Below are positions 3,584 through 62,110 of a DNA stretch of 64,000 bases, in pieces. The DNA comes from Rhodopseudomonas palustris HaA2 (GTDB lineage Bacteria; Pseudomonadota; Alphaproteobacteria; Rhizobiales; Xanthobacteraceae), in contig NC_007778.1 in NCBI RefSeq assembly GCF_000013365.1, positions 1-64,000 of the forward strand. Reading direction: 5' to 3'. The notes under the pieces were generated by a model. The model saw nothing but the letters and a program-made list of their open reading frames with translations. It was not told where the DNA came from and made no database searches. Numbering within the stretch: the stretch's first letter is position 1; the number at the start of each line of letters is the position of its first letter. Made by a program: the position numbers and the translations under genes.

Positions 3584-3638
3584 ACCCTCTCCCCTTGTGG
3601 GAGAGGGTGGCTTCGCGAAGCGAAGCCGGGTGAGGGGT
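3584..3638 (+). repeat. GAGAGGG palindrome, long form, left copy (hairpin-then-tail orientation)
   Basis: The outer hairpin is CCCTCTCCC/GGGAGAGGG (3585-3607). It is followed by a second, perfect hairpin GGCTTCGC-gaa-GCGAAGCC (3609-3627) and the tail GGTGAGGGGT. The inverse of this 55-base element lies at 4011-4069, with a different inner hairpin sequence but the same outer parts. Confidence 0.9.
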
Positions 3639-3639
3639 C

Positions 3640-4011
3640 ATGCCGCAGCGCCCGCGTCACGTTTCAACCCCAGCGAAACTCCGTGCCTTTGCCAAGACGA
3701 TGCGGCACGCGCCCACTGATGCGGAATCCGCGATGTGGAAGTTGCTGCGCGATCGCCGTTTCGCCCAGCTGAAATTCCGCCGGCAGGTGCCGTTCCAGAA
3801 CTACATTCTCGACTTCGTCTGCTTCGAGCAGCGCCTGGTGATCGAGATCGACGGCAGTCAGCATGCAGAGCAAACGCGCGACCAGATTCGCGATGCCACG
3901 CTCCTCGCTGCGGGCTTTCGCGTGCCGCGCTACTGGAACAACGACGTGCTGCAGCGTCGCACAGCGGTGCTTGAAGATATCCTTGCGAAGCTTTCCGAAA
4001 CGGACGAATAA
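3640..4011 (+). CDS. DUF559 family endonuclease-like protein
   Basis: A 123-residue DUF559 protein, a group related to the very-short-patch repair (Vsr-like) PD-(D/E)XK nuclease fold; the biological role is not established. Visible signatures are the N-terminal helical part with TDAESAMWKLLRDRRF, then KFRRQVPFQNYILDFVC, and the core strand LVIEIDGSQH, which supplies acidic residues expected at the active site. The start is chosen because GAGGGG of the flanking repeat sits just before the ATG. The stop codon overlaps the downstream inverted repeat. The closest relative in the window is the DUF559 gene at 45527-46018, which has the same context. Confidence 0.85.
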   Translation: MPQRPRHVSTPAKLRAFAKTMRHAPTDAESAMWKLLRDRRFAQLKFRRQVPFQNYILDFVCFEQRLVIEIDGSQHAEQTRDQIRDATLLAAGFRVPRYWNNDVLQRRTAVLEDILAKLSETDE

Positions 4012-4069
4012 CCCCTCACCCGGCGCCTCACTTCGTTCGGCGCCACCCTCTCCCACAAGGGGAGAGGGT
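4011..4069 (-). repeat. GAGAGGG palindrome, long form, right copy (tail-then-hairpin orientation)
   Basis: The tail ACCCCTCACC begins in the stop codon of the DUF559 gene. It is followed by an inner hairpin with GGCGCC arms (4022-4044) and the outer hairpin CCCTCTCCC/GGGGAGAGGG (ending 4069). It is the inverted partner of 3584-3638. The outer segments are nearly identical, while the inner stem differs in sequence but still pairs. Confidence 0.9.
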
Positions 4070-22236: not shown

Positions 22237-22276
22237 GCCCCCTCTCCCGCTTGCGGGGGAGGGCCGGGGTGGGGGA
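22237..22276 (+). repeat. GAGAGGG palindrome, short form (hairpin-then-tail)
   Basis: CCCTCTCCCGC-tt-GCGGGGGAGGG with tail GGGGTGGGGG. It faces an inverted copy at 22341-22378 across 64 bases that hold no gene. The arrangement is that of the DUF559 units without the gene. Confidence 0.85.
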
Positions 22277-22340
22277 AGCCGCAGGCACTGCGCTTGCGAT
22301 CTGCCTGATCTCTCTGAATCGAGACTCCACCGCTCGCGTC

Positions 22341-22378
22341 GCCCTCACCCCAACCCTCTCCCGCACGCGGGAGAGGGA
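22341..22378 (-). repeat. GAGAGGG palindrome, short form (tail-then-hairpin)
   Basis: Tail GCCCTCACCCC followed by CCCTCTCCCGC-ac-GCGGGAGAGGG. Inverted partner of 22237-22276. Confidence 0.9.
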
Positions 22379-45325: not shown

Positions 45326-45363
45326 GCCCTCACCCCAGCCCTCTCCCGCAAGCGGGAGAGGGG
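45326..45363 (-). repeat. GAGAGGG palindrome, short form (tail-then-hairpin)
   Basis: Tail GCCCTCACCCC, then CCCTCTCCCGC-aa-GCGGGAGAGGG. First of four copies between pheS and pheT, paired with 45469-45505. Confidence 0.9.
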
Positions 45364-45468: not shown

Positions 45469-45505
45469 CCCTCTCCCGCTTGCGGGAGAGGGTCGGGGTG
45501 AGGGC
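45469..45505 (+). repeat. GAGAGGG palindrome, short form (hairpin-then-tail)
   Basis: CCCTCTCCCGC-tt-GCGGGAGAGGG with tail GGGGTGAGGGC, facing the DUF559 gene from the left. It occupies the same position as the left repeat of the dnaN-recF unit. Confidence 0.9.
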
Positions 45506-45526: not shown

Positions 45527-46018
45527 ATGGACGATTCGAAGCAGCCGACCTGGAAAGTGTCGCCCAGCCTGCGCCGCCATGCGCGCGAGTTGCGGAAGAA
45601 GTCGACCGACGCCGAGCGGCTGATGTGGGGCGAGCTGCGCGACAAGCGCCTCGGTGGGTTTTCGTTCAAGCGCCAGGTGCCGATCGGGCCGTTCATCGCC
45701 GACTTTGCCTGCCATTCGGTGAAGCTGGTGGTCGAGATCGACGGCGGTCAGCATTTTGCGGACGCTGCCGAGCGCGCTGACGCGGCCCGCACGGCGGCGA
45801 TCGAGGCGCGCGGCTTTCGGGTGATTCGCTTTAGCAATGCCGACGTGATGAGTAATCGTGACGGGGTGTTGCAGAGCATCGCGACCGAGCTAGCGGCAAG
45901 GGCCCTCACCCCAACCCTCTCCCGCAAGCGGGAGAGGGAGCGCGCCGCGCGCGAGGCCAAGCAGCGACCTGACCAAACAACTTCAAAGCAGCGTCATTCA
46001 ACGGACGATGCGGACTAA
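45527..46018 (+). CDS. DUF559 family endonuclease-like protein with repeat-derived C-terminus
   Basis: A 163-residue product if started at the ATG at 45527 (MDDSKQPTWKVSPSLRRHAR); the frame is open from 45434, but that part reads through a repeat. The DUF559 core has KSTDAERLMWGELRDKRLGG, FKRQVPIGPFIADFAC and KLVVEIDGGQH, then ARGFRVIRFSNADVM. After the core, [13 protein letters not shown] is the translation of a palindromic repeat, followed by a polar tail. The core ends near residue 125, the usual family length, so the last 40 or so residues are probably an added extension. Confidence 0.82.
   Translation: MDDSKQPTWKVSPSLRRHARELRKKSTDAERLMWGELRDKRLGGFSFKRQVPIGPFIADFACHSVKLVVEIDGGQHFADAAERADAARTAAIEARGFRVIRFSNADVMSNRDGVLQSIATELAARALTPTLSRKRERERAAREAKQRPDQTTSKQRHSTDDAD
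45902..45938 (-). repeat. GAGAGGG palindrome, short form, inside the DUF559 frame
   Basis: GCCCTCACCCC tail then CCCTCTCCCGC-aa-GCGGGAGAGGG. It is translated as [13 protein letters not shown] in the DUF559 protein. Confidence 0.9.
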
Positions 46019-46057: not shown

Positions 46058-46094
46058 CCCTCTCCCGCTTGCGGGAGAGGGTTGGGGTGAGGGC
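46058..46094 (+). repeat. GAGAGGG palindrome, short form (hairpin-then-tail)
   Basis: CCCTCTCCCGC-tt-GCGGGAGAGGG with tail GGGGTGAGGGC, about 65 bases before the pheT ATG. Paired with 45902-45938. Confidence 0.9.
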
Positions 46095-59451: not shown

Positions 59452-59488
59452 GCCCTCACCCCACCCCTCTCCCGCAAGCGGGAGAGGG
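59452..59488 (-). repeat. GAGAGGG palindrome, short form (tail-then-hairpin)
   Basis: GCCCTCACCCC-acCCCTCTCCCGC-aa-GCGGGAGAGGG. Paired with 59572-59613 across 83 bases that hold no gene. Confidence 0.9.
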
Positions 59489-59571
59489 AGCCGGCCGCGT
59501 CGCGGGGCGGCCGATGTGCACGATCTGATCGGCAGCAGAGTGAGCACCCTCCCTCTCCCCAGGCACAGCGA

Positions 59572-59613
59572 GCCCCCTCTCCCGCTTGCGGGAGAGGGGG
59601 CTCGGGTGAGGGC
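59572..59613 (+). repeat. GAGAGGG palindrome, short form (hairpin-then-tail)
   Basis: CCCCCTCTCCCGC-tt-GCGGGAGAGGGGG with tail GGGTGAGGGC, after a partial copy of the hairpin arm at 59546-59560. Inverted partner of 59452-59488. Confidence 0.9.
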
Positions 59614-61980: not shown

Positions 61981-62020
61981 CCCCCTCGCCCGCTTGCGGG
62001 AGAGGGTTGGGGTGAGGGCG
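61981..62020 (+). repeat. GAGAGGG palindrome, short form (hairpin-then-tail)
   Basis: CCCTCGCCCGC-tt-GCGGGAGAGGG with tail GGGGTGAGGGCG. Paired with the long-form copy at 62053-62110. Confidence 0.9.
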
Positions 62021-62052
62021 AGCCGAGCACGGATTCAGCGACTCGCCGAGAG

Positions 62053-62110
62053 CCCTTCCCCCAACCGGATCGCTGACGCGATCCGACCTCCCCCGCAAGC
62101 GGGAGAGGTT
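62053..62110 (-). repeat. GAGAGGG palindrome, long form with its own inner hairpin
   Basis: Tail CCCTTCCCCCAACC, a perfect inner hairpin GGATCGC-tgac-GCGATCC (62067-62084), then CCTCCCCCGC-aa-GCGGGAGAGG. It is the third long-form copy in the window, with an inner stem different from those at 3609-3627 and 4022-4044. Confidence 0.88.

Follow-up and report, generated by a model that had tools for sequence, protein, structure and literature searches.

The described system closest in layout is the REPtron, in which the gene of a nuclease (TnpA_REP/RAYT) lies within inverted cognate palindromes (REPs) and many inverted palindrome pairs occur without the gene. Its enzyme is an HUH tyrosine transposase, its repeat has a GTAG tag and RAYT genes are static. 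Enzyme and repeat are said to have co-evolved (PMC8266576). Another repeat family, on record for E. coli since the 1990s and reported from more than 260 genomes, is BoxC, also named PIT or TM_ECO (Holder 2015, PMC4666352), an intrastrand triplex motif with the sequence CCCTCNCCC-loop-GGGNGAGGG plus a GGGTGAGGG tail, some copies of which form inverted pairs. The E. coli motif was reported to form stable triplexes in vitro, with triplex formation in vivo not supported, and mobility genes are stated never to have been found around the E. coli sites; the main text of that report names no enzyme for the motif and does not mention DUF559. CGTC-tagged REPs (Di Nocera 2013, PMC3733652) are also palindromic intergenic repeats and were described as apparently lacking a dedicated transposase. 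On the protein side, E. coli YcjD was earlier predicted to be a PD-(D/E)XK, Vsr-like nuclease (PMC1189080), and the DUF559 protein VsrA of Caulobacter is reported to be required for an SOS response when the ScmA methyltransferase is lacking, and was proposed to act in mismatch repair (PMC12907096). The EDxHD (Vsr-like) homing endonucleases, including I-Bth0305I, are described as having a long DNA-binding region beside the catalytic domain, and free-standing homing genes exist (PMC3943268).

The window analysed here comprises 64,000 nucleotides of Rhodopseudomonas palustris HaA2 (NC_007778.1, positions 1 to 64,000) and is the start of a 5.33-Mb genome contained in a single contig. Between dnaN and recF, both identified with NCBIfam models, lies a 486-bp unit (3584-4069) composed of a DUF559 gene with a repeat on its left and the inverted copy of that repeat on its right. 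The left repeat (3584-3638, plus strand) consists of hairpin 1 (3584-3608), hairpin 2 (3609-3627) and the purine tail GGGTGAGGGGT (3628-3638) toward the gene, which encodes a probable Vsr-like endonuclease of 123 amino acids (3640-4011, plus strand). The right repeat (4011-4069, minus strand) begins with the tail (4011-4021), followed by hairpin 2 (4022-4044) and hairpin 1 (4045-4069). Hairpin 1 of both repeats has the sequence CCCTCTCCCC-loop-GGGAGAGGG, hairpin 2 comes after it, and the purine tail GGGTGAGGGG is directed into the gene on both sides. The 28-nt arms of the two repeats are 100% complementary and 430 nt apart, and as single-stranded DNA both repeats fold better than 200 of 200 shuffles (z -6.5 and -4.8). 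A spacer of one base separates the end of the left repeat (3638) from the ATG at 3640, and GAGGGG stands 2 nt from the ATG, a close spacing for a ribosome binding site; the first base of the right repeat (4011) is the final base of the TAA stop codon. The sequence-only reading had proposed one compact unit with such a zero-spacer fit: coordinates, Pfam and NCBIfam bear out the unit, and both junctions are as described. The inverted bracket is real; beyond that reading, the repeats are no isolated pair but belong to a genome-wide family, and another DUF559 gene in the window is bracketed as well.

In the window the hairpin pattern was counted 11 times, where 0.00 occurrences were expected, and the general pattern 230 times genome-wide against a single occurrence of the reversed pattern. 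The left repeat of the second cassette (45469-45505, plus strand) is of another subtype without hairpin 2; it is followed by the DUF559 gene (45527-46018, plus strand), the frame of which, as judged by eye, continues through the right repeat (45903-45938, minus strand), placing this repeat within the reading frame. Extra repeats of the same subtype lie outside the cassette on its left (45327-45362, minus strand) and on its right (46058-46094, plus strand). Gene-less arrangements, to which no strand is assigned, include a hairpin pair of the same family (22240-22377), a pair of the second-cassette subtype with tails outward (59453-59612) and a two-ended unit with tails inward (61983-62109). At the place matching this last unit, at ~62 kb, relatives carry other, differing units (15 genomes).

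The window protein matches Pfam DUF559 with an E-value of 5.8e-36, and its sole other Pfam match, MTES_1575, is below the cut-off. The AlphaFold model (pLDDT 86.9) is a single domain of 123 amino acids, the predicted fold of which is Vsr-like. Its top structural match, the Neisseria endonuclease-like protein 3hrl (TM 0.71/0.92), fits the DUF559 profile; the next one, the catalytic domain of I-Bth0305I (TM 0.63/0.77), is the closest outside DUF559, and E. coli Vsr appears at rank 12 (TM 0.53/0.49, E 0.07). The invariant residues E29, D58, D71 and H75 have spacing identical to the active site proposed for Caulobacter VsrA, and D81 is off by one relative to the fifth proposed residue (PMC12907096). 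The protein shares a Vsr-like fold with Vsr and the spacing of four proposed active-site residues with VsrA, but its score with the curated Vsr model is far below the cut-off (17.5 bits versus 97.85). PADLOC gave only weak defence-system matches. In the model, the catalytic-domain fold is also shared with the EDxHD homing endonucleases; these carry a long DNA-binding region, whereas the window protein is a single repeat-bracketed domain encoded between dnaN and recF.

The comparison with REP/RAYT that had been drawn from the sequence holds for the layout and for matched gene-repeat pairs: in both cases a nuclease gene lies within inverted cognate palindromes, and gene-less inverted pairs are numerous. 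In contrast, the proteins are unrelated (DUF559 here, HUH there), and a purine tail takes the place of the GTAG tag, with neither GTAG nor CTAC found within 3584-3638 or 4011-4069. The locus is REP/RAYT-like in layout and not a member of that system. To our knowledge, no strand-transfer chemistry has been described for the Vsr-like fold.

Going by their sequence, the repeats are the known BoxC/PIT/TM_ECO intrastrand triplex motif, and the gene partner appears to be the new part. They agree with Table 1 of PMC4666352 in combining a pyrimidine-purine hairpin with a purine third strand in mirror order, and differ from the motif as presented there in the matched nuclease gene attached to them and in the many subtypes with a second hairpin. 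A hairpin was present in 349 of 436 flanks of DUF559 loci, with an asymmetric arm in 238; tail and arm corresponded in mirror order in 134 of these and in direct order in 18, with 86 ties. Since flanks within one genus are not independent, the count by distinct arm type is the fairer one (40 mirror versus 5 direct, 18 ties). The tail follows the hairpin arm in mirror order, as would be expected of a third strand; for example, the arm GGGAGAAGG goes with the tail GGATGAGGG. Folding is conserved in the subtype X4, where 18 of 22 ends fit the pattern and hairpin 2 is represented by 17 distinct sequences, 16 of them folding at z of -2 or lower (mean z -3.1, RNA energies).

E. coli has a DUF559 gene of its own, ycjD (b1289, K-12 1351407-1351760). 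In strain KE47 the ycjD frame passes into a BoxC/triplex repeat and has its stop codon inside it; in K-12 a shortened repeat copy stands at the ycjD end, and TM number 9 of PMC4666352 is found farther downstream. No such repeat was detected on the upstream side of ycjD, where the repeats are therefore one-sided. DNA of the ycjD region is present in 5375 of 5426 E. coli genomes, in 3361 of them over more than 80% of a query that included the repeats and neighbouring genes. The E. coli control of our DUF559 profile search was silent, which amounts to one missed member if the control strain has ycjD. Searches of open-licence papers gave, in the titles and abstract openings listed, no report linking DUF559 with these repeats, and an earlier one elsewhere is possible. 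With a candidate cognate nuclease in K-12, the origin and spread of BoxC repeats become testable in a laboratory strain.

The host genome contains seven DUF559 profile matches. All six short genes are bracketed by inverted repeats, of a different subtype for each gene and with the tails pointing at the gene from both sides; the seventh match, an open frame of 419 amino acids, has no bracket of that kind. For a wider survey, 250 nt upstream of each gene were aligned to the reverse complement of 250 nt downstream, a score in which any inverted-repeat type counts, including other kinds such as the AT-rich repeat of L103. The threshold of 16 was picked after the scores were seen; at 20, brackets are found at 55 of 58 genus genes, 48 of 75 named loci and 4 of 171 neighbouring ORFs. 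The genus set comprised 61 hits above 95 bits from 16 Rhodopseudomonas genomes, with eleven weaker or partial hits left out, and 55 of its 58 short genes with full flanks scored at least 16 (58 of 61 without the flank rule), although these counts are not independent because the genus genes are static in place. Brackets were found at 18 of 29 loci in a class sample with one genome per family, at 15 of 18 further class loci and at 15 of 28 loci of a phylum sample. The named loci, which are the best 80 of 579 matches to the window protein less L268 (the match being a run of N) and four loci with short flanks, were bracketed in 57 of 75 cases versus 4 of 171 for the ORFs next to them. Inward hairpins of this particular type on both sides within 200 nt gave a similar picture, being present at 53 of 76 named loci and at 7 of 181 ORFs beside them. 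The enrichment of flanking inverted repeats anticipated for relatives is strong, and the association of DUF559 genes with repeats is almost certainly real and widespread.

In all samples together, 48 of 208 full-flank loci had no bracket at score 16, and since the samples consist of best-scoring loci, remote DUF559 genes may show lower rates. Bracketed loci also occur in assemblies labelled Methylomirabilota, Planctomycetota and Chloroflexi (L239, L242, L250, L253, L257), where binning errors are possible. Among four loci from a plasmid collection, a Deinococcus plasmid locus was bracketed and an Azospirillum gene had a 24-nt match, and no two-sided match was found at a Synechocystis DUF559 gene or at E. 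coli ycjD. A long DUF559 protein of the genus (~400 amino acids; L007, L063-L075) has no DG-QH motif, showing IELVNPDES-like residues at the position of VEVDGGQH in the short proteins, and no flanking repeats (0 of 14 bracketed; 14 of 16 copies taken).

Within genomes, each gene is matched to its own repeat. In a set of 94 short DUF559 loci from 29 genomes with two or more such loci, the own flanks matched best at 75 when compared with the other DUF559 downstream flanks of the same genome (53 of 60 in the genus, and a weaker 22 of 34 in class genomes). The summed own-flank score was 2916, compared with a permutation mean of 1723 and a maximum of 2111. In a smaller set of 75 loci, 62 of them best-matching, at least 8 of the 13 exceptions involve the same or nearly the same repeats within one genome. 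Across genera, protein and repeat similarity showed a weak positive correlation (Mantel test, n 107, rho 0.144, p 0.0035), and for two subtypes copy number followed the cognate gene's presence (p 0.003 and 0.03), whereas for a third it did not (p 0.18). The gene-by-gene matching between nuclease and BoxC/PIT/triplex repeat is real.

Gene-less repeat copies are far more numerous than gene copies. Twenty units selected as pairs (L288-L307) have hairpin 1, hairpin 2, tail and a core of ~10-30 nt, followed by the same parts in inverted order, and measure 128-149 bp (113 bp in one with a run of N). They resemble MITEs in being short, gene-less and provided with inverted ends like those of the gene-carrying unit. 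In several of these units, TCTTC-like bases before or GAAGA-like bases after the unit were noted by eye, and may be part of the element or a target preference. Close pairs are all tails-in for subtype X4 (17 of 17; 140 places, 16 genomes) and for subtype X2 (17 of 17, gene included; 40 places, host genome); the second-cassette subtype also occurs in tails-out pairs (the one at 59453-59612). Brackets of 200-800 bp numbered 8 for X4, 1 for X2 and 2 among the first 100 of the 230 general places, and all ten distinct ones, matched by eye, contain DUF559 genes, in a count that leaves out two 1.1-kb gaps of the general-pattern list.

We favour, with a probability of roughly 0.6, a two-component nuclease-repeat system in which a single-domain DUF559 nuclease is paired, in a REP/RAYT-like manner, with its own cognate structured repeat. 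The bracket enrichment, the within-genome matching and the REP/RAYT-like layout all support the distinct nuclease-repeat system that the sequence-only reading had suspected. This repeat would join a pyrimidine-purine hairpin to a purine tail that can double back to serve as third strand; in many cases a second hairpin separates the two. The DUF559 enzyme would recognise and cut a repeat end that has folded while single-stranded, as may happen on the lagging strand, after which host repair or replication might copy or remove the two-ended unit. Gene-less units of ~130-150 bp would be passengers spreading in trans, and the DUF559 gene would stay put and be inherited vertically, sometimes being lost or replaced, in the manner of RAYT genes. 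Recognition, cutting and mobilisation of the repeat by DUF559 are what we infer from these data.

The genes indeed stay in place: the 61 genus genes fall into 11 sites, one of which (L041) is a contig-edge effect, and, that case aside, proteins from separate sites share no more than 66% identity. The earlier suggestion that gene and repeats move or are copied together is accordingly retained for the repeats, gene-less pairs of which are scattered, but not for the genes. Two genus sites hold two different DUF559 lineages each. At the intergenic site common to the L002 and L030 groups, different species have two different DUF559 cassettes, here and there accompanied by repeats of the other type, as if the cassettes nested in or replaced one another. 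The dnaN-recF gap could be resolved in 15 genus genomes, leaving out G013, which is split over contigs. Classed by eye, 3 of these gaps carry the DUF559 cassette and 2 a pair of the same family without the gene; 2 have a GIY-YIG gene accompanied by a different palindrome, and the other 8 contain CGTC-type palindromes that are gene-less or decayed. Sites without the DUF559 gene therefore exist (12 of 15), as had been looked for, but all 12 contain other repeat units and a repeat-free gap was found in 0 of 15. In Bradyrhizobium, L203, L204 and L206 carry the DUF559 gene between dnaN and recF too, together with almost the same repeat subtype, so that the insertion may be old; L205 has the gene and the subtype in flanks without dnaN, recF, dnaA or gyrB.

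Six occupied/empty candidates among orthologous genus loci yielded no clean two-ended insertion with target duplication, and no target-site duplication was seen by eye in the flanks of gene-less units or at orthologous genus loci, where clean empty sites are few. The G001/G003 dnaN-recF pair was considered as an excised cassette and rejected: its left end is of another subtype (in G001, arm GGGAGAAGG and tail GGATGAGGGG), and excision is therefore not claimed. Presence and absence also differ between strains of E. coli, where the hrpB-mrcB pair is absent in two strains and reduced to one hairpin in a third, and where alx-sstT has a similar remnant in one strain and quite different DNA in another.

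A homing-type drive, in which the nuclease cuts a cassette-less allele, or a repeat already in place, and a cassette-bearing copy then serves as the template for repair, would also account for one site holding different cassettes in different species. The repeats would then be cut site and homology arms instead of transposon ends. This appears unlikely overall. In its favour, no structure outside DUF559 is closer to the model than a homing endonuclease domain, the catalytic one of I-Bth0305I, and a group I intron endonuclease model gave a weak match, short of the cut-off, to the GIY-YIG protein that accompanies the CGTC-tagged REPs. Against it, the DUF559 protein is a catalytic domain and nothing more, lacking the extended DNA-binding portion that known homing enzymes of these families carry, and the large excess of gene-less copies over genes is not predicted by homing.

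The nuclease-repeat pairing is also visible across genomes. Among 299 Pseudomonadota genomes, the strict triplex pattern was found in 53 of the 77 that encode a full-length DUF559 protein (E-value of 1e-20 or better) versus 18 of 222 without one, in a comparison made for DUF559 alone with genome size outside the model. Shuffling the labels 20,000 times within 16 families gave 29 on average and never more than 38, against 46 observed. The strict pattern, which misses other repeat subtypes, was absent in 24 of the 77 DUF559 genomes, and one DUF559-less genome had 131 copies; the 18 genomes with repeats and no gene indicate that repeats can persist alone, or that the gene was missed. Such co-occurrence would also be expected if DUF559 served the host by resolving or repairing hairpin or triplex structures, so that repeat-full genomes keep the enzyme and the brackets are a by-product. 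The Vsr-like relatives, among them VsrA with its SOS role and proposed mismatch repair (PMC12907096), fit this reading, which we nevertheless consider improbable, as it explains neither why own flanks match better than those of other DUF559 loci in the genome nor why gene-sized brackets contain only DUF559 genes.

The repeats may be still less plausibly regarded as mere expression signals of small genes, serving ribosome binding, termination or mRNA ends. They do lie within 15 nt of the gene start in 57 of 160 cases and touch or overlap the stop codon in 108 of 159, but the genome has hundreds of repeat copies versus seven DUF559 hits, brackets are mostly missing at neighbouring ORFs, and earlier work as cited in PMC4666352 saw neither promoter nor terminator activity for the motif, all of which makes this explanation very improbable. 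Chance landing of DUF559 genes in repeat-rich intergenic DNA has a negligible probability: the genome is repeat-rich and such a hairpin flanks 89 of 181 neighbouring ORFs on one side or both, but both-sided brackets are confined to 4 of 171, subtypes are matched within genomes and the tails face the gene from both sides in the six host-genome loci. Both of these readings were set aside on the ORF control, the DUF559-only content of gene-sized brackets and the within-genome matching.

A two-component nuclease-repeat system would give the DUF559 family a concrete candidate substrate, and RAYT/REP may then be a single instance of a wider nuclease-repeat pairing. More tentatively, and at slightly less than even odds, the enzyme that the BoxC/PIT/triplex repeats have lacked may be DUF559, and the CGTC REPs may likewise have theirs in a GIY-YIG subgroup. 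If so, these two and the RAYTs would be three unrelated single-domain nucleases, each recognising how its own repeat folds, and together they would drive the majority of palindromic intergenic repeats in Proteobacteria; DUF559 would recognise the end of a hairpin or of an intrastrand triplex, and would spread DNA with no transposase involved.

The CGTC-tagged REPs differ from the repeats described here in both repeat and nuclease family, and occupy the same dnaN-recF site in relatives. A GIY-YIG subgroup with a GVT[NS]DL-like motif was seen flanked by CGTC-tagged palindromes, including the dnaN-recF gaps of G009 and G008 (L157, L158). In 28 of the 30 loci L173-L202 (edge loci L180 and L198 taken out; the remaining hits, some long and UvrC-sized, lie outside the sample), inverted flanks were present at 14 of 19 subgroup loci and at 1 of 9 other GIY-YIG loci, and a CGTC-like tag on at least one side at 19 of 19 (both sides in 7) and 0 of 9, respectively. 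Searches of open-licence papers gave, in the titles and abstract openings listed, no report of a GIY-YIG nuclease paired with these repeats. In the dnaN-recF gap of G004, a decayed unit (L161) resembles, by eye, an internal-deletion remnant of a GIY-YIG cassette, and such a deletion is a possible route from gene-carrying to gene-less units.
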